From positions 2,914,001 through 2,978,000 of the forward strand of contig NZ_LT607751.1 in NCBI RefSeq assembly GCF_900090305.1: a stretch of DNA of 64,000 nt. The letters run 5' to 3'. The stretch comes from Micromonospora siamensis. GTDB taxonomy: Bacteria > Actinomycetota > Actinomycetes > Mycobacteriales > Micromonosporaceae. This document shows, piece by piece, positions 23,397-55,560 of the stretch (position 1 is the first letter of the stretch; each line of letters opens with the position of its first letter). The notes under the pieces were generated by a model that saw only the letters and a program-made list of their open reading frames with translations, did no database searches and was not told the origin of the DNA. The translations under genes were made by a program, and so were the position numbers.

Positions 23397-23422
23397 GTAC
23401 CCCGGTGGTGTCGGCTTCATTC
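23397..23422 (-). promoter_or_regulatory. SigB-type promoter candidate (GAAT-N16-GGGTAC) for DUF3072 gene
   Basis: On the minus strand GGGTAC (23402-23397) is preceded by 16 bases and GAAT, matching GNNT-N14-16-GGGTAC/T. The -10 ends 28 bases before the ATG, leaving room for a normal leader with the GAGGAG ribosome-binding site. Confidence 0.55.
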
Positions 23423-23449
23423 CGCCCCGCCGCCGCATACGATCACCGG

Positions 23450-24406
23450 ATGGACACGGGTGTGGTGGTGGTCGGCGCCGGGATCGCCGGGGTGGCGTGC
23501 GCGGTCGAGCTGACCCGGGCCGGGGTGCCGGTGGAGATCCGCGAACGGGGACGCGTCGCCGGCGGCCGGATGGCCAGCAAGCGCTTCGACGGGCGCCCCG
23601 CCGACCTGGGCGCCGCCTACTTCACCGTCGACGACCCGGACTTCGCCGCGGTCGCGCAGCAGTGGCGGGCCGCCGGGCTGGCCCGGGAGTGGACCGACAC
23701 CTTCGTCGCGTACGACCGTGACGGCCGGCGGGAACGGCGCGGGCCGGTGCGCTGGGCCGCCCCCGGTGGCCTGCGTTCCCTGGTCGAGCACCTGGCCCGG
23801 GACCTGCCGCTGACCGTCGACCGGCTGGTGCTCGGGGTCGAGCCGGGCCCGGTCGTCGACGGTCGGCCGTGCGCCGCGGTGGCGCTGGCGGTGCCCGGCC
23901 CGCAGGCCGCCCTGCTGCTCGACCCGGCGCTGGTCGAGGCGACCCGGGTGGTGCAGGACCAGCGCTGGACGGCCGCGCTCGCCGCCGTGCTGCGCTTCCC
24001 CGGCCGCCGCTGGGCCGACTTCCGGGGTGCGTTCGTCAACGACCACCCGGTGCTCGCCGTGGTCTGCGACGACGGCGACCGGCGCGGCGACGGCGCCCCG
24101 GTGCTGGTCGCGCACACCACCCCGGAGTTCGCCGCCGGGCACCTGGCCCAGCCGACGGGTGCCGGGCCGGCGATCGAGGAGGCCGTCCGGGACCTGCTCG
24201 GGCTCCCCGAGCCGGCCGAGTTGGTGCACGTGCACCGCTGGACGTACGCCAAGCCGGCGTCGACCGCGGAGGGGACGTACCACCTGGACGCCGACGGCAT
24301 CGGGCTGGCCGGGGACGCCTTCGGCGGCAAACCCCGGGTGCAGACCGCCTGGCGCTCCGGCCGCGACCTCGGCCGAGCCCTGACCACCCACCTGACCACC
24401 CCCTAA
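23450..24406 (+). CDS. Renalase-like FAD-dependent oxidoreductase
   Basis: A 318-residue flavoprotein. The dinucleotide-binding motif VVVGAGIAGVACAVEL is at residues 5-20, followed by the renalase-type GRVAGGRMASKRFDGRPADLGAAYF; the C-terminal LAGDAFGG binds the flavin ribityl region. Bacterial renalases oxidise dihydro-isomers of NAD(P)H that inhibit metabolism, a repair function, though exact substrate here is inferred. The ATG at 23450 gives the normal short N-terminus. It ends before a long hairpin. Confidence 0.87.
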   Translation: MDTGVVVVGAGIAGVACAVELTRAGVPVEIRERGRVAGGRMASKRFDGRPADLGAAYFTVDDPDFAAVAQQWRAAGLAREWTDTFVAYDRDGRRERRGPVRWAAPGGLRSLVEHLARDLPLTVDRLVLGVEPGPVVDGRPCAAVALAVPGPQAALLLDPALVEATRVVQDQRWTAALAAVLRFPGRRWADFRGAFVNDHPVLAVVCDDGDRRGDGAPVLVAHTTPEFAAGHLAQPTGAGPAIEEAVRDLLGLPEPAELVHVHRWTYAKPASTAEGTYHLDADGIGLAGDAFGGKPRVQTAWRSGRDLGRALTTHLTTP

Positions 24407-24414
24407 CCCCCGCC

Positions 24415-24483
24415 GCTCGTCGATCAGGGAGTTCTGGTCGTCCGGAAGCGCTCTCCGTGACGAAAACTCCTTGATCGACGAGC
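24415..24483. repeat. Palindromic intergenic repeat / bidirectional terminator
   Basis: Inverted repeat of 19 bp with one G-T pair (arms 24415-24433 and 24465-24483) separated by 31 bases, between convergent genes. Its arm, CGTCGATCAGGGAGTT, is a close variant of the IS30-flanking arm CGTTGATCATGAAGT, which suggests a dispersed family of intergenic hairpins. Confidence 0.75.
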
Positions 24484-24496
24484 CGGACGGGAGGGG

Positions 24497-25810: not shown

Positions 25811-25904
25811 GACACCACCCTTCGGCCTCGCCCGTGCCTCGGGGAGGTGGTGACACACCTTGCCCTGCGGACGACCCCGCCAATCGTGGCTGTCCGGGTG
25901 ATCG

Positions 25905-26582
25905 TCACCGCAGTGCGGCGATCGGGCTTTCCGCCAGGCCGGCCAGCAGCGCCGCCGGGTCGTCGTAGACGGCCACCGCGCCCGCGCCGGCCAGCTCGCC
26001 GCGGCTGGTGCCGCCGCAGGCCAGCCCGATGCACGGGATGTCCAGCTTGCCGGCCGCCGCCACGTCCCAGACCGAGTCGCCGACGAACACCACCTCGGCG
26101 GCGTCCAGTCCGGCCTGCTCGAGCGCGGCGATCAGGATGTCCGGCGCCGGCTTGCTCTGCTGCGCGTCCGCCGAGCTGGTCACCGTGTCGATCACGTCGT
26201 CGGCGTCGAGCACCTTGCGCAGCGCGGCCAGCTCGTGCTCGGCGGCGGAGGTGGCCAGCACCACCCGCAGGCCCCGCGCCGCGCAGGCCCGCAACAGCTC
26301 CGCCGCGCCGGGCAGCGGGGCCAGCCGTTCGAACCAGCCCGCGAAGAGACTGTCGTGGGCGTCGCGGAGCTTGTCGTCCTGGTCCCGGTCGCGTTCCGCG
26401 CCGAGCAGGTGGTCGAGGAGCTTGTCCGAGCCCATCCCGATGGACCGGTGGATGACCGCCATGGGCACCCGGTGGTCGGCCTGGCGCAGCGCCTCCCACC
26501 AGGCGACGGTGTGCAGGTAGGTCGTGTCGACGAGGGTCCCGTCGACGTCGAGGAGGACTCCGCTGCGCTTCAGATCGGGCAT
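25905..26582 (-). CDS. HAD-superfamily hydrolase (phosphoglycolate phosphatase-like)
   Basis: A 225-residue HAD protein: motif I is LLDVDGTLVDT, motif II is VVLATSA, the lysine is in SKPAPD, and motif IV is VFVGDSVWDVAAAG. The helical cap is class C1. It dephosphorylates a small metabolite; identity unknown. Lies 10 bases after the large SpoIIE-type phosphatase gene and is probably co-transcribed with it. Confidence 0.92.
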   Translation of the reverse strand: MPDLKRSGVLLDVDGTLVDTTYLHTVAWWEALRQADHRVPMAVIHRSIGMGSDKLLDHLLGAERDRDQDDKLRDAHDSLFAGWFERLAPLPGAAELLRACAARGLRVVLATSAAEHELAALRKVLDADDVIDTVTSSADAQQSKPAPDILIAALEQAGLDAAEVVFVGDSVWDVAAAGKLDIPCIGLACGGTSRGELAGAGAVAVYDDPAALLAGLAESPIAALR

Positions 26583-26592: not shown

Positions 26593-28749
26593 CTACCCGT
26601 CGGAACCGTCCGCGACGCCTGGCCGGTCGGCCGGGATGAGGATCTCGAACCAGACGGTCGAACCGCGCACCGTGGGGTCGGTGCCCCAGGCGTCGCTCAG
26701 CTCCTCGATCAGCCCGAGGCCCCGGCCCCGGCTGCTCAGCGTGTCGGTCTGGGCGCGGGTCACCGTGCCCCGGGTGCCCGAGTCGGCGACCGAGACCAGC
26801 AGCCGTTCCGGGCTCAGGTCGACCGCCACCCGGGCGGCCGTGCCGGCGTGCAGCAGCGCGTTGGTGGTCAGCTCGCTGGTGCACAGCACGGCCGCGCCGA
26901 TCACCTGCTCGGGCACCTGCCAGTCGGTGAGCTGGCCGGTCATCCAGTGCCGGACCCGGCTCGGCGCGGTCGGCTCGGCCGGCACCTCCATGCTCGCCGA
27001 CCGGCTCGGCCGGAGCGCGTGCTCCACGGCCAGCACCGCGACGTCGTCCTCGGTGGCGCCCGGCACCGCCGCGCTGGCCACCGCGCACAGCGCCCGGGGG
27101 TCGCCGCTGCCCGCCCCGGCCACCGCCGCCGCCAGCCCGTCCAGCCCCGCCGACAGGTCCTGCCAGCGTCGCTCGACCACCCCGTCGCTGAACATCAGCA
27201 GCGTGTCGCCGGCGGTGAACGGCACGGTGGCCGTACCCGGGCGGCAGCCCAGCCCGAGTGGCGGGCCGGCGGGCAGGTCGACGTAGCGGGCGGTGCCCGT
27301 ACCGTCCGGGGCGCAGCGCCGGATCAGCGGCGCCGGGTGCCCGGCGCTGGCCAGGGTGACCTGCTGCGACTCCAGGTCGATCACCCCGAAGACCACCGTG
27401 ACGAACAGCTCGTAGGTGTCGGCCTCGGTGCCGAGGCTGGCGACCAGCCGGTCCAGGCCGCCGAGCACCGCGTCCGGTCGGGGGTCGCTCAGCGCCAGCG
27501 CACGCAGCGCGGCGCGGACCTGCCCCATCCGGGCGGCGGCCTGCACGTCGTGGCCCGCCACGTCGCCGAGCACCACACCCAGCCCGCCGGTGGGCAGGGT
27601 GAACGCGTCGTAGAAGTCGCCGCCGGCGGCGTTGCCGTCCACGCCCGGCTCGTAGCGGGCGGCGATCCGCAGCCGGGGCATCGCCGGCAGGTGCTCCGGC
27701 AGCATGCTGCGTTGCAGCAGCTGGGCGGTGCCGTGCTGGGTCTCGAACCGGCGGGCCCGCTCGGCGGCCTGGCCGACCAGCTCCACCGCCGCGGCGAGCA
27801 GGGCCCGTTCCGCGCCGGTCCAGGTGTGCGCCTCCTGGTAGCCCACCGACAGCGCGCCGCGGATCACCGACGAGCGCAGCGGCAGCACCGCCAGCGCCCG
27901 GATCTTCTGGTCGTGGCGGTCCACCGCGCTGTCCCGCAGCGGCTGGCCGTCGGCGACCAGGAACGGCACCCCGCTGCGGGCGGTGGCGATCACCGGAGCG
28001 GCGGAGTCCTGGGCGGCCCGCCGCCACAACGGCGGCAGCCGCTCGTCGGCCTCGTCCAGCAGCTCGCCCCGGACCCGCCGCACCGTACGCCAGTTGCTGC
28101 CCTCGTCGATCGCGAAGGACACCCGGTCGGCGTCGAACGACCCCAGCGCGTAGCGCAGCGTCACCCGCGCCACGTCGTCCAGGGTGAGCGTGCCGGCCAG
28201 TGCTGCGGCGAAGTCGCTGAGGCTCTGCAGCTGCTGGGTGACCTGGCTGGTCTGCACCAGCACGCTCAGCACCCCGACGATGCGGCCCGCGCTGTCCTGC
28301 ACCGCCGAGTGCGCCCGGGTGAAGGCGGCCCGGCCGGCGGTGCCGAGGCTGCGGTGGATCGGCAGCGTCGAGTCGCGCTCCAGGAACGGCTCGCCGCGCC
28401 GGTAGGTGCGCTCGATCACCTCGGCGGCGCCGGGGGCGTGCCACACGTCGGCGAAGACCTCGGCTGCGGGCCGACCGATCGCGGCGGGGTGCCGCGGGCC
28501 GAGCACCTCGGCGTACCCCTCGTTGTAGAGCAGCACGAAGTCGTCGCCGTAGAGCAGGCACATCGGCACCGGCGAGGCGAGGACGACGTCGATGACCGCG
28601 CGTACGGCCGGGTCCCACCGCTCGCGCGGACCCAGCGGGGTGTCGCCCCACGGGTGGGCGAGCACCGCGGCCGCCGCGTCGGTGGGCCCGGGAGCCTCCG
28701 TGGGAGCGGGAGCGGATGGGGTGGGAACTCGCCCGACCGTGCCTGGCAT
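26593..28749 (-). CDS. PAS-GAF-SpoIIE phosphatase with C-terminal anti-sigma-kinase-like HATPase domain
   Basis: A 718-residue cytosolic signalling protein. Order: PAS-like domain (about 30-160, with MCLLYGDDFVLLYNEGYAEVLG), GAF domain (about 175-335), SpoIIE/PP2C-type phosphatase (about 355-570, with GGDFYDAF, VLGDVAGHDVQAA and FSDGVVERR), and a RsbW-like histidine-kinase-type ATPase (about 600-705, with ELTTNALLHAG and GRGLGLIEELSDAWG). Such proteins dephosphorylate anti-anti-sigma factors and can also phosphorylate them, tuning SigB/SigF-type sigma factors to a sensed signal. No partner anti-sigma gene is adjacent; the sigma factor at 12.6 kb is a possible distant target. Confidence 0.94.
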   Translation of the reverse strand: MPGTVGRVPTPSAPAPTEAPGPTDAAAAVLAHPWGDTPLGPRERWDPAVRAVIDVVLASPVPMCLLYGDDFVLLYNEGYAEVLGPRHPAAIGRPAAEVFADVWHAPGAAEVIERTYRRGEPFLERDSTLPIHRSLGTAGRAAFTRAHSAVQDSAGRIVGVLSVLVQTSQVTQQLQSLSDFAAALAGTLTLDDVARVTLRYALGSFDADRVSFAIDEGSNWRTVRRVRGELLDEADERLPPLWRRAAQDSAAPVIATARSGVPFLVADGQPLRDSAVDRHDQKIRALAVLPLRSSVIRGALSVGYQEAHTWTGAERALLAAAVELVGQAAERARRFETQHGTAQLLQRSMLPEHLPAMPRLRIAARYEPGVDGNAAGGDFYDAFTLPTGGLGVVLGDVAGHDVQAAARMGQVRAALRALALSDPRPDAVLGGLDRLVASLGTEADTYELFVTVVFGVIDLESQQVTLASAGHPAPLIRRCAPDGTGTARYVDLPAGPPLGLGCRPGTATVPFTAGDTLLMFSDGVVERRWQDLSAGLDGLAAAVAGAGSGDPRALCAVASAAVPGATEDDVAVLAVEHALRPSRSASMEVPAEPTAPSRVRHWMTGQLTDWQVPEQVIGAAVLCTSELTTNALLHAGTAARVAVDLSPERLLVSVADSGTRGTVTRAQTDTLSSRGRGLGLIEELSDAWGTDPTVRGSTVWFEILIPADRPGVADGSDG

Positions 28750-28877: not shown

Positions 28878-28902
28878 GCGTGCTGCCCGGTCGAGGGGGT
28901 AT
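28878..28902 (+). promoter_or_regulatory. SigB-type promoter candidate (GCGT-N15-GGGTAT)
   Basis: GCGT at 28878-28881 and GGGTAT at 28897-28902 with a 15-base spacer, 36 bases before the start of the TM-helix protein gene and its AGGAGGGA ribosome-binding site. Confidence 0.5.
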
Positions 28903-28938: not shown

Positions 28939-29790
28939 ATGCCGAAAACCCTCGCGGTCGGGCAGGCCGACATCGGTTCCGCCCTGACCGACTTCTGGAG
29001 GTCGGTGCTGCTCTTCATCCCGAGGGCCATCGCGTTCATCGTGATCCTCGTGGTGGGCTGGCTCATCGCCCGAGCCGTGCTGAAGATCGTGGACGCGGCA
29101 CTGGAACGGGTCGGGTTCGACCGGGCGGTCGAACGCGGCGGCATCAAACGTGCGCTGGAACGGACCAAGTACGACGCCAGTGACATCCTGGCCAAGCTGG
29201 CCTACTACGCCGTGCTGCTGTTCACCCTGCAGTTCGCCTTCGGGGTGTGGGGACCCAACGCGATCAGCGACCTGATCCGCGGCGTGATCTCCTGGCTGCC
29301 CAGGGCGTTCGTGGCGATCATCATCGTGGTCGTGGCCGCCGCCATCGCCAACGCGGTGCGCGACCTGATCACCGGGGCGCTGGGCGGGCTGTCGTACGGA
29401 AAGGTGCTGGCCGACCTGACCGCCGTGTTCATCCTGGCGCTCGGCATCATCGCCGCGCTGAACCAGGTGGGCATCGCCACCACGGTCACCACGCCGGTGC
29501 TGATCGCGGTCCTGGCCACGGTGGCCGGCATCCTGGTCGTCGGCGTCGGCGGTGGTCTGGTGAAGCCGATGCAGAACCGCTGGGACGGCTGGCTCAACCG
29601 GATGGCCGAGGAGTCCCGGGCGATCCAGGCGCAGCGGCAGGGGCAGAACGCCGGGCGCAGCGACTACGAGCGGCAGATGGCCGACCGTGGTGGTCAGCGT
29701 ACCCAGGTGATGCCGGAGTCCTCGATGACCGGGTCGCGCGGCGGCCGGCCGGGGGACGAGACCCAGCAGTTCGGCCGGCCGAACGGCTGA
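28939..29790 (+). CDS. Small mechanosensitive-channel-like TM-helix protein
   Basis: A 283-residue membrane protein with about five hydrophobic helices. Repeated units of the conserved TM-helix type found at the N-terminus of MscS-like channels are visible: FIPRAIAFIVILVVGWLIAR, WLPRAFVAIIIVVVAAAIAN, and a later VAGILVVGVGGGL helix. The MscS beta domain is absent, so channel activity is uncertain. The C-terminal 70 residues are polar, glutamine- and arginine-rich. AGGAGGGA precedes the ATG. A stress-type promoter candidate lies upstream. Confidence 0.82.
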   Translation: MPKTLAVGQADIGSALTDFWRSVLLFIPRAIAFIVILVVGWLIARAVLKIVDAALERVGFDRAVERGGIKRALERTKYDASDILAKLAYYAVLLFTLQFAFGVWGPNAISDLIRGVISWLPRAFVAIIIVVVAAAIANAVRDLITGALGGLSYGKVLADLTAVFILALGIIAALNQVGIATTVTTPVLIAVLATVAGILVVGVGGGLVKPMQNRWDGWLNRMAEESRAIQAQRQGQNAGRSDYERQMADRGGQRTQVMPESSMTGSRGGRPGDETQQFGRPNG

Positions 29791-31208: not shown

Positions 31209-31469
31209 TCACATGGTGTCCGGACCGGTCCGTCCCGTGGTCGACGGCCGGTACGCGCGCTCGGCGTCGGTCATCTCCCGCCGTTCGGCCTGCGGGCCGG
31301 CGCCGCGGTCGACCGCCTCCGGCCCGTGACCGAAGGCCGCCTCCTCACCCGCGTCGTTGCCGGTGACGTCGTCGGCCTGCCCGTCGATGGTCGACCGGGC
31401 GATGGCCCGGTCCAGCTCCTCCAGCGGGGTCTTCTGCTCGTCCCGCCACACCCTGTCGTTGTCCGTCAT
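31209..31469 (-). CDS. Small acidic hypothetical protein under a SigB-type promoter
   Basis: An 86-residue hydrophilic protein with no membrane segment, rich in Asp, Glu, Gly and Arg. N-terminus VWRDEQKTPLEELDRAIARS is helical; the middle (DDVTGNDAGEEAAFGHGPEA) looks disordered. Not recognised, but it has the composition of small actinobacterial stress proteins. The ATG at 31469 lies only 9 bases after the -10 of a very good SigB-type promoter, so the message may be nearly leaderless; an AGAGGG stands just before the ATG. Confidence 0.78.
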   Translation of the reverse strand: MTDNDRVWRDEQKTPLEELDRAIARSTIDGQADDVTGNDAGEEAAFGHGPEAVDRGAGPQAERREMTDAERAYRPSTTGRTGPDTM

Positions 31470-31478: not shown

Positions 31479-31503
31479 GTACCCGGGCGGGATGATCGCA
31501 AAC
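31479..31503 (-). promoter_or_regulatory. SigB-type promoter (GTTT-N15-GGGTAC)
   Basis: On the minus strand GTTT (31503-31500), 15-base spacer, GGGTAC (31484-31479). The -10 ends 9 bases before the ATG of the downstream gene. Confidence 0.72.
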
Positions 31504-31588: not shown

Positions 31589-32050
31589 TCAGGGGGTCGG
31601 CCGGTCCACCGAACCGCGCCACGCGCCGGTCTCCTGACCGCGCCGCTCGATGAACGTCTTGAACCGCTCCAGGTCACCCTTGGCCCGGCGGTCGACCACG
31701 CCCAGCTTGTCGCCGGCCTGCTCGACCACGCCGTGCGGCTCGAAGTCCATCTGGAGGGTGACCCGGGTGTGCCCCTCGTCGAGGCGGTGGAAGGTCACCA
31801 CGCCGGCCTGCTGGGTGCCGCCGGTGGACTTCCAGGCCACCCGCTCGTCGGGGAGCTGCTCGGTGATCTCGGCGTCGAACTCGCGCTTGACCCCGGCGAT
31901 CTCCACCGTCCAGTGGGTCATCGTCTCGGAGAGCTGCCGGACCTCCTGCACGCCCTCCATGAAGTGGGGGAACTCCTCGAACTGGGTCCACTGGTCGTAC
32001 ACGGTCCGGATCGGGACCGCGACGTCCACGTGCTCGACAACGCCGCTCAT
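31589..32050 (-). CDS. SRPBCC (polyketide cyclase/START-like) family protein
   Basis: A 153-residue START-fold protein: VVEHVDVAVPIRTVYDQWTQFEEFPHFMEGV is the standard first strand and helix, and a long C-terminal helix (KGDLERFKTFIERRGQ) closes the ligand cavity. These proteins bind or modify hydrophobic ligands; partner unknown. AAGGAGG precedes the ATG. It follows the DUF2795 gene by 52 bases on the same strand, so both may be driven by the SigB-type promoter at 32530. Confidence 0.9.
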   Translation of the reverse strand: MSGVVEHVDVAVPIRTVYDQWTQFEEFPHFMEGVQEVRQLSETMTHWTVEIAGVKREFDAEITEQLPDERVAWKSTGGTQQAGVVTFHRLDEGHTRVTLQMDFEPHGVVEQAGDKLGVVDRRAKGDLERFKTFIERRGQETGAWRGSVDRPTP

Positions 32051-32102: not shown

Positions 32103-32519
32103 TCACCAGCGGGTCGTCTCGTTCTTGTGCCCGAGCGCGGCCCACACCTCGGAGATCGTCTGGTAACGGGTGCCCTCGGGGAGCCGCTCCAGGGCGGCCA
32201 CGATGTCGGCCGGCGCCTGGTTCTCCAGGGCGTTGGCCACCAGCGCCGCACGGTCACCGGGCAGGGCGGTCATGGTGATGAACCGGCCCAGCCGACTGCG
32301 CGCCTCCACGTCCTCGGAACTCATCCCCTGCGGGGAGCCGGTACGCAGGTCGCCGGCCGGGGCGGTGGTGGCGCCCGGCTGGTCCTCACCGGCCGGCTCC
32401 GCCTCGCGGAACTCCTCCACGCGCGAACCACCGGTTCCCGGTCCCTGCACGAGCCCGGCCACGTCCTGGCTCATGTTGTCGTCGACCCGGGGCGAGTGCT
32501 TGCTGCTGCCTCGTTCCAT
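32103..32519 (-). CDS. DUF2795 domain protein
   Basis: A 138-residue protein. The N-terminal 75 residues are disordered and polar; the C-terminal 60 hold a DUF2795-type domain (LPGDRAALVANALENQAPADIVAALERLPEG, then YQTISEVWAALG). The family is small and of unknown function, with a fold of short helices. The ATG at 32519 has no ribosome-binding site and lies 10 bases after a near-consensus SigB-type -10, so a leaderless message is likely; an ATG at 32474 is an alternative start. Confidence 0.85.
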   Translation of the reverse strand: MERGSSKHSPRVDDNMSQDVAGLVQGPGTGGSRVEEFREAEPAGEDQPGATTAPAGDLRTGSPQGMSSEDVEARSRLGRFITMTALPGDRAALVANALENQAPADIVAALERLPEGTRYQTISEVWAALGHKNETTRW

Positions 32520-32529: not shown

Positions 32530-32554
32530 GTACCCGGGCAACGGGCCGGCAAAC
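32530..32554 (-). promoter_or_regulatory. SigB-type promoter (GTTT-N15-GGGTAC)
   Basis: On the minus strand GTTT (32554-32551), 15-base spacer, GGGTAC (32535-32530), followed after 10 bases by the ATG of the DUF2795 gene. Confidence 0.75.
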
Positions 32555-32583: not shown

Positions 32584-33564
32584 TCACGAATCAGCCGGTT
32601 CCCGGGGCGGCAGGATCGGCTCACCGGGATCCTTCGCCCCGCTCTGCAACACCCGCCCCCGCTGCAACTCCGCGTTGATCTGCACCCCGAGCATCAGGGC
32701 GCAGTTGGACAGGTAGAGCCAGACCAGGAACGCGATGACCGCGCCCAGGCTGCCGTAGGTGACGTCGTACGAGCCGAAGTTCGCGACGTACAGGCCAAAA
32801 CCGAAGGAGGCCAGCAGCCAGGCCAGCAGCGCCACCGCGCCGCCCGGGGTGAGCCAGCGGAACCGGGGCTGGCGCACGTTCGGCGCGATCCAGAACAGCA
32901 GGGACAGCAGCACCATCACCACCATGGCCAGCGCCGGCCACTTCGCGACGCTCCACAGGGTACGGCTCAACCCGCCCGCCCCCACCAGGTCGCCGACCGC
33001 GTCGGCCACCGGGCCGCTGACGATCAGGCCGGTCGCCACCACGGCCAGCAGCAGCAGCGACAGCGCGGCCAGCCCGATCTGGATCGGGCGCAGCTTGTAG
33101 ACCGGCCGGCCCTCCTGCACCCCGTAGATGGCGTTCGAGGCCCGGGTGAACGCCCCGATGAACCCCGACGCCGACCAGAGCGCGCCGAGCAGACCGAAGC
33201 TCAGCAGCACCTTCGCCCCGCTCTGCTGGTCGACCACCCCACGGACCACGCTCACGAAGCCCTCGTTGCCCACCACCGAACCGGCGCCGACGTCCCGGGC
33301 CAGGTCCAGCACCGTGTCCACGGTCCGCTCGCCCTCGGAGACCAGCCCGACCAGGGCGACCACCACGATGGTGGAGGGGAACAGCGCCAGCACCCCGTAG
33401 TAGGTCAACGCGGCAGCCCAGTCGGCGCAGTTGTCCTTGAGGAAGTTGCGCCCGCTGCGCACCAGCACCCCGCGCCAGGTGCGCCAGCTCAACTGGCGTA
33501 CCCGGCGGGGGATCCGCCGCTGTGCGCCCTGCGGCGCCGCGGCCGGCTCCGTCGTCGCTGCCAT
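32584..33564 (-). CDS. YihY/BrkB family membrane protein
   Basis: A 326-residue integral membrane protein with six hydrophobic helices. Family motifs: NFLKDNCADWAAALTYYGVLALFPS near residue 40, GALWSASGFIGAFTRASNAIY near residue 128, and TYGSLGAVIAFLVWLYLSNCALMLGVQINAEL near residue 275. Often annotated as virulence factor BrkB or, wrongly, ribonuclease BN; transport or channel function is suspected. It has its own SigB-type promoter candidate 65 bases upstream. Confidence 0.93.
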   Translation of the reverse strand: MAATTEPAAAPQGAQRRIPRRVRQLSWRTWRGVLVRSGRNFLKDNCADWAAALTYYGVLALFPSTIVVVALVGLVSEGERTVDTVLDLARDVGAGSVVGNEGFVSVVRGVVDQQSGAKVLLSFGLLGALWSASGFIGAFTRASNAIYGVQEGRPVYKLRPIQIGLAALSLLLLAVVATGLIVSGPVADAVGDLVGAGGLSRTLWSVAKWPALAMVVMVLLSLLFWIAPNVRQPRFRWLTPGGAVALLAWLLASFGFGLYVANFGSYDVTYGSLGAVIAFLVWLYLSNCALMLGVQINAELQRGRVLQSGAKDPGEPILPPREPADS

Positions 33565-33628: not shown

Positions 33629-33654
33629 GTACCCGGGCCGGAAAATCGACAAAC
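33629..33654 (-). promoter_or_regulatory. SigB-type promoter (GTTT-N16-GGGTAC)
   Basis: On the minus strand GTTT (33654-33651), 16-base spacer, GGGTAC (33634-33629), 64 bases before the BrkB-family start. Confidence 0.72.
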
Positions 33655-33727
33655 CCGACCCCGCGTTTGCCGGTGCCGCCGGGGGGAACGGTCCAGGCAG
33701 ACGCAATCGACGCGCAAGGAGGACGAG

Positions 33728-34141
33728 ATGCCCGGGCGCGAGGTACTGCCCAGCACGCTGCGGCGCTCCCCCCAGAAGGCCCAGCGCACCTGGGAGAAGA
33801 CGCACGACTCGGCCGTCGAGACGTACGGCGAGGGGGAGCGGGCGCACCGCACGGCGTTCGCCGCGGTGAAGCACGAGTTCGAGAAGGTCGGCGACCACTG
33901 GGAGCCCAAGGGCCGCAAGGGCCCGAGCGACCGGCAGGCGGCCGGCGGCGGCCCCGCCCGGCGCGCCCCCACGGCCGGCGGCGTGGACGCCAACGCCACC
34001 AAGGACCACCTCATGGAGGTGGCGAAGAAGCTGGACGTCCCGGGCCGGTCCCGGATGACGAAGCCGGAACTGGTCAAGGCGATCGAGAAGGCGAACACCC
34101 GGCAGACCGCCAAGGCCCGGGAGAAGAGCAAGGGTCGCTGA
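33728..34141 (+). CDS. ChaB family protein with Rho-N/SAP-like C-terminus
   Basis: A 137-residue basic protein. The ChaB domain is at the N-terminus (LPSTLRRSPQKAQRTWEKTHDSAVETYGEG, then AFAAVKHEFEKVGDHWEPKG, residues 6-63). A glycine/alanine-rich linker leads to a helix-extended-loop-helix resembling the Rho N-terminal domain (ATKDHLMEVAKKLDVPGRSRMTKPELVKAIEKA). ChaB is linked with the ChaA antiporter in enterobacteria, but the actinobacterial ChaB-Rho-N proteins are uncharacterised and probably bind nucleic acid. AAGGAGG precedes the ATG. Upstream GTTT-N14-GGGGAA is a weak stress-promoter match. Confidence 0.9.
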   Translation: MPGREVLPSTLRRSPQKAQRTWEKTHDSAVETYGEGERAHRTAFAAVKHEFEKVGDHWEPKGRKGPSDRQAAGGGPARRAPTAGGVDANATKDHLMEVAKKLDVPGRSRMTKPELVKAIEKANTRQTAKAREKSKGR

Positions 34142-34202: not shown

Positions 34203-35636
34203 TCACCAGTGCCCGCCGCCGGGGGCCTGGAGGTGCACCGTCTTGACGGTGCTGAACTCGTCCAGCAGTTCCGGCCCGTACCCGAAGCCCTGCCCGCTGC
34301 CGCGGCGTGGCTGCGCGGCGCCACCCGGCGCGCCCCCGAAGACCGCGTTGACCTTGACCGTGCCCACCGGCAGCTCCCGCCAGGCCCGCTGGGCGTGGCT
34401 CATCGACGGCGTCAGCACCGTGGCGGCCAGCCCGTACGGCGAGTCGGCGGCGCAGCGCAGCGCCTCGCTGAACGAGTCGACCACGACCACCGCGGCGACC
34501 GGCCCGAACGTCTCCTCGCGGACCAGGGTCATCTCGTGCCGGCAGTCGGTCACGACCGTCGCCGGATAGAACGCCCCCGGCCCCTCCGGCAGCACCCCGC
34601 CGGCCCGCAGCGTCGCCCCCTCGGCCACGGCGGCGGTCACCTGCCCGTGCACGTGGTCCCGGTGCCGCCGGTCCACCAGCGGGCCCAGCTCCGTGGACGG
34701 CTCGCGGCCCGGACCGACGGCCAGCGCGCCGGCCCGCTCGACCAGCGCGTCGACGAAGTCCTCCGCCACGTCCCGGTGCGCGTAGATCCGCTCCACCGCC
34801 ACGCAGATCTGCCCCGCGTTGGCGAACGAACCCATCGCCGCCTGCTCGGCCGCCCAGACCGGATCCACCCCGGCGTCCACGATCAGCGGGTCACTGCCGC
34901 CGTTCTCCAGCAGCGCCTTCGCCCCGGTACGGGCGCACGCCGCGGCGATCGCCCGGCCGGTGGCCGTGGACCCGACGTGGGCCACCACGTCCACCTCCTG
35001 CCCGGCCAGCGCCGCGCCCACCTCGCCGCCGCCCGTCAGCAGCGACAGCACCCCGGCCGGCAGCACGCCGTCCAGTGCCTTCGCCAGCAGCCAACCGGTC
35101 GCCGGGGTCCGCTCGCTCGGCTTGTAGAGCACCACGTTGCCGGTGACCAGGGCGGCGCCGAGCAGCCCGCAGGAGACCGCCACCGGGTCGTTCCACGGGG
35201 TGATCGCGGCGACCACCCCACGCGGCTCCGGCGCCATGAAGTCGATCGCGTCGGCGCTGCCGTGCAACGTCCGGCCGCCGCGCAGCGGCGCCAGCTCGGC
35301 GTACTGGCGCAGCGTGCCGATGCCCGCCTCGACGCCGCCCCGGGCGTCGCCCAGTGGCTTGCCCATCTCGGCGGTGACCGCCTCGGCCAGCTCGTCGGTC
35401 ATCGCCGCCACCGCGTCCGCGGCGCGGTGCAGCGCCGCCGCGCGTTCCGCCGCCGGCGTCACCGCCCACTCCGCGGCGACGCCGCGCGCCGCCTCCACCG
35501 CCTTGGCCACCTCGTCCGGCGTGGCCACTCCGACGGTGCTGACCGGGGAGCCGTCGGCCGGGTCGTGCACGACCAGTTCGCCCCCTTCGCCGCCCGCGCC
35601 CCACACTCCACCGATGAGCTGCTCAACCCTGTACAT
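34203..35636 (-). CDS. Aldehyde dehydrogenase family protein
   Basis: A 477-residue NAD(P)-dependent aldehyde dehydrogenase. Cofactor and catalytic features: ITPWNDPVAVSCGLLGAAL, NVVLYKPSERTPATG, VGSTATGRAI, the general-base Glu in LLENGGSDPLIV (ELGG replaced by ENGG), the nucleophile Cys in FANAGQICVAVERI, and REETFGPVAAV near the C-terminus. Oxidises an aldehyde to the acid; substrate not predictable. Divergent from a CrtI-like oxidoreductase with 72 bases between, both with stress-type promoter candidates. No good ribosome-binding site for the chosen ATG. Confidence 0.93.
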   Translation of the reverse strand: MYRVEQLIGGVWGAGGEGGELVVHDPADGSPVSTVGVATPDEVAKAVEAARGVAAEWAVTPAAERAAALHRAADAVAAMTDELAEAVTAEMGKPLGDARGGVEAGIGTLRQYAELAPLRGGRTLHGSADAIDFMAPEPRGVVAAITPWNDPVAVSCGLLGAALVTGNVVLYKPSERTPATGWLLAKALDGVLPAGVLSLLTGGGEVGAALAGQEVDVVAHVGSTATGRAIAAACARTGAKALLENGGSDPLIVDAGVDPVWAAEQAAMGSFANAGQICVAVERIYAHRDVAEDFVDALVERAGALAVGPGREPSTELGPLVDRRHRDHVHGQVTAAVAEGATLRAGGVLPEGPGAFYPATVVTDCRHEMTLVREETFGPVAAVVVVDSFSEALRCAADSPYGLAATVLTPSMSHAQRAWRELPVGTVKVNAVFGGAPGGAAQPRRGSGQGFGYGPELLDEFSTVKTVHLQAPGGGHW

Positions 35637-35646
35637 GCGGCAGTGG

Positions 35647-35671
35647 ATGCCCCCGCTCCGGCGAGGCAAAC
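35647..35671 (-). promoter_or_regulatory. SigB-type promoter variant (GTTT-N15-GGGCAT) for ALDH
   Basis: On the minus strand GTTT (35671-35668), 15-base spacer, GGGCAT (35652-35647), 10 bases before the ATG. The -10 deviates at one base from GGGTAT. Confidence 0.5.
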
Positions 35672-35673
35672 GC

Positions 35674-35699
35674 GTTTCGCCCGGTAACCGGCCGGGTAG
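35674..35699 (+). promoter_or_regulatory. SigB-type promoter (GTTT-N16-GGGTAG) for CrtI-like gene
   Basis: GTTT (35674-35677), 16-base spacer, GGGTAG (35694-35699), then 9 bases to the ATG. It is back to back with the minus-strand promoter at 35647-35671. Confidence 0.7.
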
Positions 35700-35708
35700 G
35701 CGGATCGG

Positions 35709-37343
35709 ATGACGTCGCCCGCCATCCCGACCGGTTCCGCCCTCCCGACCGGTGCGGAGAGCGTCGATGCCATCGTCGTCGGCGCCGGCCACAACGGCCT
35801 GGTCGCGGCGAACCTGCTGGCCGACGCCGGCTGGGAGGTGCTGGTGCTGGAGGCCACCGAGGCCCCGGGCGGCGCCGTCCGGTCGGCCCAGGTCACCGCC
35901 CCCGGTTACCTCAGCGACCTCTACAGCTCCTTCTATCCGCTCGGCTACGCCTCCCCGGTGCTGGCCGGGCTGGACCTGGACCGGTACGGCCTGCACTGGA
36001 CCAACTCCCCGGACGTGCTGGCGCACCTGCTGCCCGACGGACGGGCCGCGGTGATCAACCGGGACCTGGACACCACCGCCGCCTCGCTGGAGAAGTTCGC
36101 CCCGGGCGACGGCGACCGCTGGCGGCACGCGTACGCCGACTGGCGCGAGGTCTCCGGGCCGATGCTGGACACCATCACCAGGCCCTTCCCGCCGGTGCGC
36201 GGCGGGGTGGAGCTGCTGCGCCGGCTGCGGGTCGGCGGCGCGCTGCGGCTGGCCCGCCGGCTGGTCGTCCCGGTCCGCAAGCTCGGCGACGAGCTCTTCG
36301 AGGGCGAGGGCGGCCCCGCGCTGCTGGCCGGCTGCGCGCTGCACACCGACCTGTCCCCCGAGGAGGCCGGCTCCGGCGTGTACGGCTGGCTGCTGGCCAT
36401 GCTCGGCCAGGAGGTCGGCTGGCCGGTGCCGGTCGGCGGCGCCCAGAAGATCACCGACGCGCTGGTGGCCCGGCTGACCGAGCGGGGCGGGCGGATCCTC
36501 TACGGCGCCCGGGTCGACCGGGTGCTCACCGCCCGGGGCCGCGCCATGGGGGTACGGACGGCCGGCGGCAGCCGCTGGCGGGCCCGCCGCGCGGTGCTGG
36601 CCGACGTGCCGGCCCCCGCGCTCTTCCTCGACCTGGTCGGCGCGGACGCCCTGCCGCCCCGGCTGGTGGAGGACCTGGCCCACTTCAAGTGGGACGGCTC
36701 CACCCTCAAGGTCGACTGGGCGCTCTCCGCCCCGGTGCCGTGGACCAACCAGGAGGTGGCCACCGCCGGCACCGTGCACCTCGGCGCCGACCTCAACGGG
36801 CTGACCAGCTATTCCGGCGCGCTGGCCCGGGGCGAGGTGCCCCGCGACCCGTTCCTGCTGGTCGGGCAGATGTCGGTGGCCGACCCGAGCCACTCGCCGC
36901 CGGGCACCGAGTCGCTCTGGTCGTACACCCACCTGCCGTTCCGGCGGACGTGGCGGGCCGAGGACCTGGCCGGGCACATCGAGCGGATGGAGGAGGTGCT
37001 GGAGGCGGCGGCCCCCGGCTTCCGCTCGCTGATCGTCGGGCGGCACGTAGCCAGCCCGGCCGACCTGGAGAACGGCGACCCGAGCCTGGTGGGCGGCGCG
37101 CTGGGTGGGGGCACCGCGGCCGCGTACCAGCAGCTCTTCCTGCGGCCGGTCCCCGGCCTGGGCCGGGCGGACACCCCGGTGGACCGGCTCTACCTGGCCA
37201 GCTCCTCCGCGCATCCCGGCGGCGGGGTGCACGGGGCCCCCGGGGCCAACGCCGCCCGGGCGGCGTTGGCCCGCGACCGGGCGCTCACCGGCGGCCTGTA
37301 CAAGGGCGTGATCGGCGCGGCGAACCGGGCCGTCTACCGCTGA
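35709..37343 (+). CDS. FAD-dependent oxidoreductase, phytoene desaturase (CrtI/PYROXD2)-like
   Basis: A 544-residue flavoprotein. The ADP-binding motif is VDAIVVGAGHNGLVAANLL (about residues 19-37) with LVLEATEAPGGAVRSAQ; YLSDLYSSFYPLGYASPV follows, and the C-terminus has LYLASSSAHPGGGVHGAPGANAAR, the typical flavin-binding end of the CrtI/PYROXD2 group. The substrate could be a carotenoid or other hydrophobic compound, but no carotenoid genes are nearby. It probably starts within 10 bases of its transcript start. Confidence 0.92.
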   Translation: MTSPAIPTGSALPTGAESVDAIVVGAGHNGLVAANLLADAGWEVLVLEATEAPGGAVRSAQVTAPGYLSDLYSSFYPLGYASPVLAGLDLDRYGLHWTNSPDVLAHLLPDGRAAVINRDLDTTAASLEKFAPGDGDRWRHAYADWREVSGPMLDTITRPFPPVRGGVELLRRLRVGGALRLARRLVVPVRKLGDELFEGEGGPALLAGCALHTDLSPEEAGSGVYGWLLAMLGQEVGWPVPVGGAQKITDALVARLTERGGRILYGARVDRVLTARGRAMGVRTAGGSRWRARRAVLADVPAPALFLDLVGADALPPRLVEDLAHFKWDGSTLKVDWALSAPVPWTNQEVATAGTVHLGADLNGLTSYSGALARGEVPRDPFLLVGQMSVADPSHSPPGTESLWSYTHLPFRRTWRAEDLAGHIERMEEVLEAAAPGFRSLIVGRHVASPADLENGDPSLVGGALGGGTAAAYQQLFLRPVPGLGRADTPVDRLYLASSSAHPGGGVHGAPGANAARAALARDRALTGGLYKGVIGAANRAVYR

Positions 37344-51248: not shown

Positions 51249-52880
51249 CTAGTCCAGCGTCAGCAGGCCCTGTTCGGACACCACGCGTACGGACAGGGTC
51301 TTGTATCCCACCTCGTCGAAGAGCACGGTCATCTTGTCGTCCTCGTAGTTCAGCACCAGCCCGGGCCCCCACTCGGGGTGCCGGACCTGGCTGTGCACGG
51401 GGAACGGCCCTACCGCGCCGGTGTCGGCGACGCTGGTGCCGGCGTGGCAGTTGTCGCAGTGCCCGCAGACCTCGCTCATCTGCTCGCCGAAGTAGGCCAG
51501 CAGGGCCTGGCCGCGGCAGCCGGTGGTCTCGGCGAAGGCGCGCATCATGTCGGTCCGCGACCGGGTGACGGTCTGCTGGCGCTCGGCCTCGGCCAGTGCC
51601 GCCGCGGCGGCCTCCGCCGGCTTCGGGGCGTACCGGGGGGCACCCAGCTTCTGCTTGGCCCGAAGCTCGACGGCGCCGATCTGTTCCAGCAGGGACAGGA
51701 ACTGGCCGAGCTTGCGCGGCCCGAGACCGCTCCGTTCGCGCAGCTCCTTCTTGGTCACCGGCTTCTTGCGGACCAGCGCGGCCAGCTCGCGGAGTTCGTT
51801 CTCGTTGGGCAGGCCGCCGCTGAAGAAGCGCTGCAGGCCCACGTCCTCGGCCCGCCAGAGCAGCAGCACCCGGGCCGGCTGGCCGTCCCGCCCGGCCCGG
51901 CCGATCTCCTGGAAGTAGCTGTCCGGGGAGTCGGGCAGGGCCATGTGCACCACCCAGGCGATGTTCGGCTTGTCGATGCCCATGCCGAACGCCGACGTGG
52001 CCACCATGATCGGGACCTGGTCGGCGAGGAACGCCTCGTGCAGCTCGTTGCGGGCGGCGGTCGGCATGCCGCCGTGGAAGAACTTCGACGGGAAGCCGGC
52101 GTCGGTCAGGCGCTGCGCCAACTCCTCGGCGGCCCGCCGGGTGGGCACGTAGATGATGCCGGGCCGCTCGTCGTCGCGGAGCAGGGCGGTCAGCCGCCGC
52201 CAGCGGTAGTCGTCGGTGGGGCAGTACGCCACCTCGAGGAAGAGGTTGGGGCGGTCCAGCCCGGAGACCACCACCTCGGCGTCGCGCAGGTGCAGCCGGG
52301 CGATGATGTCGTCGCGTACCGGCGGGGAGGCGGTGGCGGTCAGCGCCACCACCGGCGGCCGGCCGAGGCCGTCGATGAGGTGCCCGAGCGCCAGGTAGTC
52401 CGGGCGGAAGTCGTGTCCCCAGGCGGAGATGCAGTGCGCCTCGTCGATCGCCACCAGGGCCGGCTTCAGCTCGCGCACCTCCGCCATCCGGTCCGGATTG
52501 CTCAACGCCTCCGGGGTGATGAAGAGGAACTCGGCCCGGCCCTCGCGGATCTCGACGATCGCCTGCGCCTGCTGGGCGGCGCTCTCGTCGGAGCTGATCC
52601 GCACGGCCCGCAGCTCGGGGCGTTGCCGTTCGTTGAGCGCGGCGATCTGGTCCTGTTGCAGGGCCAGCAGGGGGGAGATGACCACCGTGGGTCCGGGGAT
52701 CAGGCTCGCCGGGATCTGGTAGATCGCCGACTTGCCGGCGCCGGTGGGGAGGACCACCAGCGCGTCGCGTCGCTTCATCACCGCGCGCATGGCGGCGAGC
52801 TGGTTGGGCCGCAGCTCGGTCCAGCCGAAGAGGCTCTTCGCGGCACGGCGCAACGTCGTCGAGTGCGTGGACAGTTTCAT
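51249..52880 (-). CDS. recQ: RecQ-family ATP-dependent DNA helicase
   Basis: A 543-residue RecQ helicase. Motif 0 FGWTELRPNQLAAM, Walker A VVLPTGAGKSAIYQIPA, motif II DEAHC (IDEAHCISAWGHDFRPDY), and motif VI QEIGRAGRDG. The zinc-binding domain is reduced to CRGQALLAYFG plus CGHCDNCHAG (about 460-480), then a C-terminal Tudor-like module seen in DUF3553 (VRHPEWGPGLVLNYEDDKMTVLFDEVGYKTLSV). It unwinds DNA at stalled forks. Divergent from a methyltransferase with TetR-type operators between. Confidence 0.94.
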   Translation of the reverse strand: MKLSTHSTTLRRAAKSLFGWTELRPNQLAAMRAVMKRRDALVVLPTGAGKSAIYQIPASLIPGPTVVISPLLALQQDQIAALNERQRPELRAVRISSDESAAQQAQAIVEIREGRAEFLFITPEALSNPDRMAEVRELKPALVAIDEAHCISAWGHDFRPDYLALGHLIDGLGRPPVVALTATASPPVRDDIIARLHLRDAEVVVSGLDRPNLFLEVAYCPTDDYRWRRLTALLRDDERPGIIYVPTRRAAEELAQRLTDAGFPSKFFHGGMPTAARNELHEAFLADQVPIMVATSAFGMGIDKPNIAWVVHMALPDSPDSYFQEIGRAGRDGQPARVLLLWRAEDVGLQRFFSGGLPNENELRELAALVRKKPVTKKELRERSGLGPRKLGQFLSLLEQIGAVELRAKQKLGAPRYAPKPAEAAAAALAEAERQQTVTRSRTDMMRAFAETTGCRGQALLAYFGEQMSEVCGHCDNCHAGTSVADTGAVGPFPVHSQVRHPEWGPGLVLNYEDDKMTVLFDEVGYKTLSVRVVSEQGLLTLD

Positions 52881-52948
52881 CGGTGACCGGACGTACCCGA
52901 GCCGATCAACGCCGAAACCGTTGACCGCGGGACAGTCCCGACATCATT

Positions 52949-52978: not shown

Positions 52979-52993
52979 TACGGGAGGGGCCGC

Positions 52994-53830
52994 ATGGCGA
53001 CCATCGTCAACACCCACCAGTCCGCCGCCTGGAACGGCTACGAGGGGCGGCACTGGGCCGACCATCAGGCCCGCTACGACGCGGTCAACGGCGGTTTCAG
53101 CGACGTCCTGCTCGCCGCCGTGCGCCCCGGCGACCGGGTGCTGGACGTCGGCTGCGGCAACGGCCAGCTCACCCGGCTCGCCGCCCGGGCCGGCGGCGGG
53201 TACGCCGTCGGTGTGGACCTCTCGGGCCCGATGCTGGAGCGGGCCCGCTCCTCGGCCGCCGAGGAGGGCCTACCCGACGTCGAGTTCGTCCGCGCCGACG
53301 CGCAGGTGCACCCGTTCCCGCCGGGCGCGTTCGACGTCGCGCTCAGCCGCTTCGGGGTGATGTTCTTCGCCGACCCGGTGGCCGCGTTCGCCAACGTCGG
53401 CCGGGCGCTGCGCCCCGGCGGCCGGCTCGCCTTCGTCTGCCTGGACAGCTTCCGCCACGGCGACCTGGGTGCGGTGCTCGGGGCGCTCGCCGGTCATCTC
53501 CCGCCGCCGGGGACCGACGGCACCGGCGCGGCGGAGCCGCTCTCCCTGGCCGACCCCGACGTCGTCCGCCGGGTGCTCACCGCCGCCGGCTTCGCCGGCG
53601 TGGAGTGCGAACCGGTGGAGGCCGTCGGGACCTGGGGGCGCGACGCCGCGGACGCCGGCCGGTTCCTGGCCGGCTGGGGGCCGATCCGGTACCAGCTCGA
53701 CCGGGTCGACCCGGCCACCGCGGAGCGCGCCCGGGCCGCCCTGGTCGACGCGCTGCGCCGCCACGAGCACCCGTCCGGGGTACGCCTGCGCGGCACCGCC
53801 TGGCTGGTCACCGCCGACCGCCCCGCCTGA
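52994..53830 (+). CDS. Class I SAM-dependent methyltransferase
   Basis: A 278-residue methyltransferase: motif I VLDVGCGNGQLTRLAAR (about 48-64), AVGVDLSGPMLERAR, FVRADAQVHPFPPGAFDVALSRFGVMFFADP, then LRPGGRLAFVCLDSF. Small-molecule substrate likely, unknown. GGGAGGGG precedes the ATG. It is followed 44 bases later by a TetR gene on the same strand, and TetR-type operator palindromes stand immediately upstream, so it is likely repressed by that protein. Confidence 0.9.
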   Translation: MATIVNTHQSAAWNGYEGRHWADHQARYDAVNGGFSDVLLAAVRPGDRVLDVGCGNGQLTRLAARAGGGYAVGVDLSGPMLERARSSAAEEGLPDVEFVRADAQVHPFPPGAFDVALSRFGVMFFADPVAAFANVGRALRPGGRLAFVCLDSFRHGDLGAVLGALAGHLPPPGTDGTGAAEPLSLADPDVVRRVLTAAGFAGVECEPVEAVGTWGRDAADAGRFLAGWGPIRYQLDRVDPATAERARAALVDALRRHEHPSGVRLRGTAWLVTADRPA

Positions 53831-53874
53831 CCGTTACGACTGCCCGGTCACCGGCGAGCCTAGGATGCCTGGTG

Positions 53875-54516
53875 ATGTCACCGAGGAGAGCCGCCGCCCT
53901 GCGCGACGGGGGGCAGAACCTGCGCGAGCACCTGATCGCCGCCGCCGGCCGGCTCGTCGCGACCCGCGGCACGGCGGGGCTGACCGTACGGGACATCGCC
54001 CGGGAGGCCGGCGTCGCCGACGGGGTGCTCTACAACCACTTCGCCGACAAGGAGGAGCTGGTCGCGTACGCGCTGCACGCGCACGTGCGGGCGGTCGGGG
54101 CCGGGCAGGCCGGGGAACCGCCCCGGCCGGGGGAACGGACGGTCGGGGCGAACCTGCGGGCGTACCTGGAACGGGCCCTGGCCGTCCACGCGGCGATCCT
54201 GCCGGCGTTCACCGGGGTGGTCGGCCAGCCCAAGGTTCTGGCCCGGCTCGCCGAACTGCCGAACCCGATGGGCGGCGGGGACGGGTTGCGCGCGGAGTTC
54301 GCCGGCTACCTGCGCGCCGAGCAGCGGCTCGGTCGGGTCCGCGCGCAGGCCCGGCCGGAGGCTGTCGCCACCCTGCTCGTCGGCGTCTGCCACGACCTGG
54401 TCCTCGGCCGGTTGCTCGACCCGTCCGGCCCGGCCGTGCCCGAGCCCGCCCCGGACCTGGTGTCCGACGTGGTCGAGACCCTGCTGCACGGCCTCGCCCC
54501 GCCCGGTGCCGGCTGA
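53875..54516 (+). CDS. TetR-family transcriptional regulator
   Basis: A 213-residue TetR protein. The helix-turn-helix is LVATRGTAGLTVRDIAREAGVADGVLYNHFADKEELV (about 26-62). The C-terminal ligand domain is divergent (AILPAFTGVVGQPKVLARLAELPNPMGGG). Probably controls the upstream methyltransferase and perhaps itself through the ATGAAC-type sites at 52949-52978. Confidence 0.92.
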   Translation: MSPRRAAALRDGGQNLREHLIAAAGRLVATRGTAGLTVRDIAREAGVADGVLYNHFADKEELVAYALHAHVRAVGAGQAGEPPRPGERTVGANLRAYLERALAVHAAILPAFTGVVGQPKVLARLAELPNPMGGGDGLRAEFAGYLRAEQRLGRVRAQARPEAVATLLVGVCHDLVLGRLLDPSGPAVPEPAPDLVSDVVETLLHGLAPPGAG

Positions 54517-54543
54517 CCGCCCCGGCGCCCCCTCCGACTGCCG

Positions 54544-55494
54544 TCAGCGCAGGCGCGGGAGGACGTCCCGCTGGTAGAGGTCGAACAGCCCCTGCCAGTT
54601 CGGGCCGGTGTTGGCGACGTAGACCTCGTCGAAGCCGGCCTTGGCGTACCTGTCGATCATCTCCAGGTGCGCGTCGGCGCTGTTGCCGCAGACGAACGAC
54701 TCCTTCATCATCTCCGGCCGGACCAGCTGGGCGGCCTGCTCGAAGTGACGCGGCGAGGGGAGCACCTGGGACAGCTCACCGGGCACCCCGGCGTTCGGCC
54801 ACTTCTCGTACGCGATCCGCATGCCGGCCTCCTCGCTGTCGGCGTACGCGGCCTTGAAGCCGGCCTGGCACGGCTTGTCCCCGCCGCCGCCGTCGCGGAA
54901 CCGGCGCACCATGTCGGCGTCGGGCATGGTGCTGACGTAACCGTCGCCGATCCGGGCGGCCAGGTCGATCGCCTTGGGGCCGAAGCCGGAGACGTAGACC
55001 TTCGGCGGTGTCTCCGGCAGCGTGTAGATCCGGGCGTGCTCGACGGTGTAGTGCCGGCCGTGGTGGTTGACGAACCCGCCCGCCCACAGCTCGCGCATCA
55101 CCTCGACGGCCTCCTCCAGCATCTCCAGCCGGACGTCGGTCTGTGGCCAGGCGTCGCCGAGGATGTGCTCGTTGAGCGCCTCGCCGGAGCCGACGCCGAG
55201 CACGAACCGACCCTCGTGCAGGACGGCGCTGGTGGCCGCCGCCTGGGCCAGCACCGCCGGATGGATGCGGACGGTCGGGCAGGTCACCGCGGTGGTCACC
55301 GGGAGCGAGCAGACCTGGCTGAGCGCCCCGATGGTGGACCAGACGAAGGGGCTCTGGCCCTGGGCGTCGACCCACGGGTGGTAGTGGTCGGAGATCCACA
55401 GTGCCTCGAAGCCGGCCCGCTCGGCGCCGCGCGCCTGCTCCAGCAGCTCCGCCGGGGTGTACTCCTCGCTGGACAGGAAGTATCCGATCCTCAT
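54544..55494 (-). CDS. LLM-class F420-dependent oxidoreductase (G6PDH-like)
   Basis: A 316-residue TIM-barrel protein of the luciferase-like monooxygenase class, F420 branch (glucose-6-phosphate dehydrogenase-like). Motifs: MRIGYFLSSEEYTPAELLEQARGAERAGFEALWISDHYHPW, SPFVWSTIGALSQVCSLPVTTAVTCPTVRIHPA, and RFVLGVGSGEALNEHILGD. It reduces or oxidises its substrate with coenzyme F420, a hallmark of actinobacteria. GAGGGG precedes the ATG. A SigB-type promoter candidate stands 41 bases upstream. Confidence 0.93.
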   Translation of the reverse strand: MRIGYFLSSEEYTPAELLEQARGAERAGFEALWISDHYHPWVDAQGQSPFVWSTIGALSQVCSLPVTTAVTCPTVRIHPAVLAQAAATSAVLHEGRFVLGVGSGEALNEHILGDAWPQTDVRLEMLEEAVEVMRELWAGGFVNHHGRHYTVEHARIYTLPETPPKVYVSGFGPKAIDLAARIGDGYVSTMPDADMVRRFRDGGGGDKPCQAGFKAAYADSEEAGMRIAYEKWPNAGVPGELSQVLPSPRHFEQAAQLVRPEMMKESFVCGNSADAHLEMIDRYAKAGFDEVYVANTGPNWQGLFDLYQRDVLPRLR

Positions 55495-55535
55495 CGCTTT
55501 CCCCTCGTCACGTGCCGTTGCGGACGGGGAGTGCG

Positions 55536-55560
55536 GTACCCGGGCGGGGCCGGGCGGAAC
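55536..55560 (-). promoter_or_regulatory. SigB-type promoter candidate (GTTC-N15-GGGTAC)
   Basis: On the minus strand GTTC (55560-55557), 15-base spacer, GGGTAC (55541-55536), 41 bases before the F420-dependent oxidoreductase start. Confidence 0.6.

Follow-up and report, generated by a model that had tools for sequence, protein, structure and literature searches.

A 64-kb stretch of Micromonospora siamensis DNA, hereafter the window (bases 2914001-2978000 of a single 6.25-Mb Micromonospora contig), carries short two-box motifs of the SigB/SigF promoter type in front of a series of stress-like genes, raising the question of whether these motifs are promoters and by which sigma factor they would be read. 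A codon-usage script called 69 genes in the window, which were named via Pfam and NCBIfam. The comparisons described below make a general-stress promoter island the probable reading of the region, with 13 predicted SigB-type promoters shared by interchangeable sigma factors of the SigB family.

This reading is carried mainly by conservation. The orthologues of the 69 genes were searched, at most 130 bases upstream, for GTTT-N14-16-GGGNA or GNNT-N14-16-GGGTA in 57 named loci and in relatives' stretches of up to 20 kb, making 137 loci (L041-L097, L258-L297 and L326-L365; loci L098-L257 and L298-L325 lie outside this count). Rows were kept with an identity of at least 55%, a match starting at most 12 residues from the protein start and a full 160-base region, and upstream regions of identical sequence entered the count a single time; the named loci overlap in part with the G genomes, and merging was confined to regions that were identical. 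For 13 genes located between 19.9 and 55.6 kb (GH15, DUF3072, HAD, mechanosensitive (MS)-channel-like, g33, DUF2795, BrkB, ChaB, aldehyde dehydrogenase (ALDH), CrtO-like, HAD-GT9, RecQ and F420 oxidoreductase), the site is present in 500 of the 505 distinct regions upstream of orthologues, or 84-100% per gene. Among the remaining 56 genes, two of which lack a usable orthologue, 29 of 1111 regions match, and the reversed pattern is found in 6/505 and 28/1111 regions of the two groups, respectively. Nine of the 29 come from the gene g60, which was excluded from the 13, as its 9/15 matches stand at scattered positions.

Regarding their shape, the boxes of these sites are nearly fixed (pairwise identity 0.91-1.00) and the spacers less so (0.45-0.81), unrelated sequences of the same base composition being expected at about 0.31 by an arithmetic estimate. 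The spacer is 15 or 16 bases long at every matched site. Giving equal weight to the 13 genes, the -35 box reads G, T (65%), T (64%), T, and the -10 box reads GGG, T 75%/A 15%/C 10%, A and any base, letters that the search pattern partly fixes. All 13 sites lie just upstream of same-strand genes, 8-64 bases from the start, and in seven of the promoters the gap between the -10 box and the start codon is 8-12 bases, a distance that is kept in the orthologues (8 bases in 22/22 for GH15, 12 in 27/27 for RecQ and 10 in 55/56 for DUF2795). Considering a transcription start 5-10 bases past the -10 box, such a gap implies leaderless or nearly leaderless mRNAs, which are thus the likely products of these seven promoters.

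The initial annotation had listed eight sites as SigB/SigF-type promoters of a stress-like gene set, and all eight are present within two bases of where it placed them. Seven are conserved across relatives, and 19889 has no conserved counterpart; it was rejected as the GH15 promoter, since only 19949-19974, 8 bases before the start, recurs in the orthologues. Conservation, which settles the status of the individual loose sites, also brought five sites beyond that list, upstream of HAD (26593-26618), ChaB (33665-33689), ALDH (35647-35671), g42 (38874-38898) and RecQ (52893-52918), some of them overlooked because their -10 box is GGGAAC or GGGCAT. Together with the match to the measured SigB-family consensus (excerpts of PMC8346170, PMC10733313 and PMC11205660, cited in this form throughout), conservation gives strong support to the reading of the sites as SigB/SigF-type promoters on a stress-like gene set.

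The density of the motif in background sequence, proposed initially as a check, was followed with a strict pattern, GTTT-N14-16-GGGTAY, and with the same pattern reversed as a control. The whole genome contains 27 strict matches against one for the control. Four of the 27 share one identical sequence, and the three of these that were fetched all fall in 16S rRNA genes according to Rfam; these rRNA matches (four places, e.g. 429664-429689) are a trap for genome-wide scans. Of the 23 matches left, four are in the 64-kb window (binomial p ~8e-5), compared to three in random stretches totalling 800 kb. The loose pattern GNNT...GGGTAY, in turn, gives 66 matches in the same 800 kb, 42 coding and 24 intergenic, intergenic sequence making up 14% of the bases. 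Enrichment is thus seen with the strict pattern, and the loose one is noisy, so that a single loose site is untrustworthy without conservation. Counting rRNA copies, the strict pattern summed over 36 genus relatives gives 681 matches versus 129 for the control, being above it in 35 of them, and over the order relatives 261 versus 133, above control in 17/24.

The genome encodes five SigB/F/G-family sigma factors over the NCBIfam TIGR02980 cut-off, and all five share the region-4 helix SQMHVSRLL/SQMHVSRIL, which we take to be the -35-reading helix. One of them is in the window (12609-13436, minus strand; 284 bits for a cut-off of 234), as a solitary gene with no anti-sigma neighbour seen by eye. 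Another, near 3.496 Mb (L300), has a C-terminal STAS domain by Pfam and is followed, beyond ctaD, by a STAS-HATPase gene, which is the layout of sigma-SsdA and its anti-sigma SipA; ctaD was named by eye and from the layout in PMC10733313.

At this second locus, sipA carries a conserved GTTT-N16-GGGTA site upstream in 25/25 loci (L300:10547-10572 and orthologous loci), and ctaD a similar one in 28/31. That sipA itself has such a conserved site suggests negative feedback; the main text of the Actinoplanes missouriensis paper contains no match for 'autoregul' or 'sipA promoter' (PMC10733313). Among 30 sigma-SsdA loci (L300, L302, L313-L322 and L366-L385), the STAS domain is present in 17 and missing in 13, namely six from Salinispora and seven from Micromonospora. 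In Salinispora, sipA is absent from the ssdA locus in all six cases, its best match anywhere in these genomes having an E-value of 4e-9. The seven Micromonospora loci keep sipA, and a strict coupling between the loss of STAS and the loss of SipA was therefore rejected. One further locus (G013, L374) has the STAS domain and lacks sipA within the 9 kb examined. The seven loci are puzzling for the published Actinoplanes model, in which SipA interacts with the STAS domain, no binding having been detected with the sigma domain (PMC10733313).

The initial annotation had assigned the sites to the sigma factor at 12609, as a dedicated regulon that would be lost on deletion of its gene. The family assignment of this factor is right, the island's first promoter is about 6.5 kb away, and a match near its score level exists in 36 of 37 genus genomes, all but G015 (by eye, with identity measured in some genomes). 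However, four paralogues in the genome have nearly the same reading helix, none of the 20 upstream regions of its own gene has a SigB-type site, and the factor is absent from six Salinispora genomes, where its best match is 49-50% identical. Seven of the target genes were found in the 20-kb Salinispora loci, the other six targets not being found in those loci, and six of the seven keep their site in all six genomes (MS-channel, g33, DUF2795, ChaB, ALDH and HAD-GT9). As a sole reader, this sigma factor is thus unsupported, and a regulon dedicated to it is highly unlikely. In each Salinispora genome, the sigma-SsdA orthologue is the one SigB/F/G-family member above the cut-off, which favors another assignment, a regulon belonging to sigma-SsdA alone and switched by SipA. 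The measured sigma-SsdA consensus, GnTT-n14-CGGGTA, and the sites on sipA and ctaD agree with it, as does a luciferase-like monooxygenase among the published probable targets (PMC10733313), the gene at 54544 belonging to the same superfamily. Against it, GTTT-GGGTA is found in none of 30 regions upstream of ssdA itself, where two match the looser pattern only, and the complete Micromonospora genome G002 has neither sigma-SsdA nor a sipA orthologue (best match 40%), yet keeps the GH15, DUF3072, RecQ and F420 sites together with two sites matching the g33 and BrkB sequences. It encodes three sigma factors 70-94% identical to the one at 12609. Of three genus genomes seemingly without sigma-SsdA, only G002 was counted; the drafts G005 and G023 were rejected as losses, as sipA is present in both and assembly gaps are likely (sipA of G023 runs off a contig end, and ctaD of G005 fills a contig start). 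A dedicated sigma-SsdA regulon is accordingly rather unlikely. An explanation of another kind, in which the boxes act as operators or are constrained as parts of coding sequence or RNA, could draw on the fact that promoter status rests on sequence, and that the site at 26593-26618 overlaps the upstream gene in this genome. The tight spacing of the two boxes (15-16 bases) and their fixed orientation to the downstream gene, the drifting spacer, the start-codon distance kept at several genes and the in vitro transcription published for the same consensus (PMC10733313) make this hardly credible.

Since the sites persist with sigma-SsdA alone (Salinispora) and without it (G002), neither sigma factor is needed for their retention, which favors shared reading over dedicated regulons. 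The 13 promoters (GNNT/GTTT, 15-16 bases, GGGNA) would then drive single genes or short operons, being read, upon a stress signal, by whichever SigB-family holoenzymes the cell contains, the two main candidates being the sigma factor of the window (12609) and the orthologue of sigma-SsdA (~3.496 Mb). Activation would in turn raise the anti-sigma via the sipA promoter, as a negative feedback. Several observations weigh against this shared reading or limit it. The promoter status is known from comparing sequences only, and the regular expression fixes letters that it counts, so that the fixed-column frequencies arise partly by construction. In one genus relative (G019, 11 versus 13) and seven of the 24 order relatives, the strict pattern does not exceed its control. 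Beyond the genus, in the only Actinoplanes locus examined (L097), the DUF2795 orthologue alone carries a GTTT-type site, with GGGAAT; three F420 oxidoreductase orthologues have GTTC instead of GNNT; and the CrtO site is lost in all six Salinispora genomes, indicating that not every site survives a change of sigma factor.

The promoter type is already known, and the Micromonospora orthologues of sigma-SsdA with ctaD in between have been listed (PMC10733313); the new parts are the turnover of sigma factors and the loose coupling between STAS and SipA. A literature search, judged on titles and the beginnings of abstracts, returned no published promoter set of this kind for Micromonospora or Salinispora, and the one described here is offered for a probable general-stress regulon in both genera. 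More tentatively, it is possible that promoters of the SigB family outlive their sigma factors in this lineage: the Salinispora island would be run by a lone, STAS-less and SipA-free sigma-SsdA, and other Micromonospora would have lost either the whole of sigma-SsdA or just the STAS domain and kept the promoters, SipA being retained in the latter case. Sigma-SsdA would then not generally be held by the published SipA-STAS lock, and the loci that lost STAS and kept SipA make that inhibition model directly testable. Likewise, two natural mutants, Salinispora with its one SigB/F/G sigma and G002, which lacks sigma-SsdA, offer a way to ask whether and how paralogous stress sigma factors divide promoters or share them.

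In Bacillus subtilis, SigB is a single sigma factor with an RsbW/RsbV operon, in contrast to the several sigma factors present here. Its promoters on general stress genes are of the same kind, GTTTAA-N12-14-GGGA/TAA/T (as quoted in PMC8346170). A closer likeness is seen in Streptomyces coelicolor, where nine SigB homologues cross-recognise promoters with a GTTT/GNNT -35 box, a short spacer and a -10 box of near-invariant GGG with A at position 5 (PMC8346170); several paralogous sigma factors act on the same promoters there, as is proposed here. The difference is that two-plasmid assays were used in that species, and the present reading comes from conservation, with 13 promoters in 36 kb. The sigma-SsdA/SipA system of A. 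missouriensis shares the orthologous sigma with STAS, the STAS-HATPase anti-sigma, ctaD between them as reported for Micromonospora, and the matching consensus, two such promoters having been transcribed in vitro (PMC10733313). It differs from what is found here in the conserved same-type promoter on sipA and in the 13 of 30 ssdA loci without STAS, seven of them keeping sipA. Sigma-H of Actinoplanes sp. SE50/110 is similar by motif (-35 G/CGTTTA/C, -10 GGGTAN3T, spacing 14.6); its gene shares an operon with those of a SNARE-domain membrane protein and an SDR (PMC11205660), and no such neighbours were seen by eye at the sigma factors examined here.

Along the window, the first predicted promoter (19949-19974, plus strand; 22/22, or 20/20 in another count) precedes the GH15/trehalase-like gene (19983-21824; Pfam GH15), whose mRNA is probably leaderless. 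Upstream of the nearby gene for a YflT-domain, heat-induced stress protein (19280-19732), a SigB-type site is found in none of 34 regions. On the minus strand, 23397-23422 (23/23) serves as the predicted promoter of the DUF3072 gene (23151-23369; Pfam), and 26593-26618 (32/34) as the probable one of the HAD hydrolase gene (25905-26582; Pfam). The latter overlaps the end of the gene for a GAF-SpoIIE phosphatase with a C-terminal HATPase domain and a weak PAS match (26593-28749, minus strand; Pfam), a gene that seems to stop earlier in several relatives, from sequences read by eye. This phosphatase, a possible partner-switch regulator, has no SigB-type site in 46 upstream regions. On the plus strand, 28878-28902 (49/49) is predicted to drive the gene for a protein with mechanosensitive-channel helices (28939-29790; Pfam PF05552).

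The minus-strand site 31479-31503 belongs to the small protein g33 (31209-31469), which has no Pfam family; it is conserved in 56/56 regions, with the strict GTTT..GGGTAY in 55/56 of another count, and predicted to act 9 bases from the start. The predicted DUF2795 promoter (32530-32554, minus strand; 56/56) precedes a gene (32103-32519; Pfam) whose product is 99% identical to its closest named relative, from Micromonospora mirobrigensis. The SRPBCC gene g34 (31589-32050) is probably in one operon with it, and no site of its own is found in 56 regions upstream of g34. Two divergent promoter pairs follow. In one, the predicted promoter of the BrkB/YihY membrane protein gene (33629-33654, minus strand, 43/43; gene 32584-33564; Pfam) faces away from that of the ChaB/Rho_N gene (33665-33689, plus strand, GGGAAC, 54/55 with GTTT-GGGNA; gene 33728-34141; Pfam ChaB). 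In the other (35641-35710), the predicted promoters of ALDH (35647-35671, minus strand, GGGCAT, 53/53; gene 34203-35606; Pfam Aldedh) and of the CrtO/CrtI-like oxidoreductase (35674-35699, plus strand, GGGTAG, 20/20 after filters; gene 35709-37343) have their -35 boxes two bases apart, AAAC GC GTTT, in AAACGCGTTT. The ALDH gene (g38) had served as a site-free control, with 0/53 under GGGTA, and was dropped once its conserved GGGCAT site was seen; the ChaB gene was dropped likewise. The stricter filters behind the CrtO count left no Salinispora region in. A looser count gives 37/52, with 15 misses: six are Salinispora, a real loss by eye, in which the CrtO half of the pair is lost and the ALDH half kept, one has an apparent 17-base spacer, and the others are apparently cut short by a misplaced start, both as judged by eye.

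Further on, the HAD/glycosyltransferase-9 gene g42 (38908-40698; Pfam) has a predicted GGGAAC promoter (38874-38898, plus strand; 48/48), probably serving the run g42-g48; its spacer identity of 0.81 makes conservation less decisive here. The last two predicted promoters are on the minus strand, at 52893-52918 (27/27, or 29/29 in another count; 12 bases to the start) for the RecQ-family helicase gene (51249-52880; TIGR00614, 351.9 bits for a cut-off of 219.8) and at 55536-55561 (16/19) for the F420-dependent LLM oxidoreductase gene (54544-55494; TIGR03557, 459 bits).

Outside the window, 15 of the 19 strict sites lie 31-112 bases upstream of a called gene, and the genes behind the outside sites include those for CsbD, two hemerythrins, DUF2231 (with an HSP20 gene next to it), an SRPBCC protein, DUF2267 and a protein kinase. 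The start of a WhiB gene is 212 bases from its site, and the L037 match has no same-strand gene close downstream. Two were set aside by eye as probable chance matches, L029, inside a gene (chance or coding), and L040, one of the 15, the last bases of which overlap a likely start codon. A second cluster, with three strict sites at G000:C1:1107638-1109336 (L025), comprises an SRPBCC paralogue, a protein without a Pfam match and the DUF2231-HSP20 pair. A further SigB/F/G sigma (G000:C1:3246630-3247301, L301) matches STAS weakly at its C-terminus, slightly below the Pfam cut-off, and beside it two GNNT...GGGTA sites stand before holin-X and Na/H exchanger genes.

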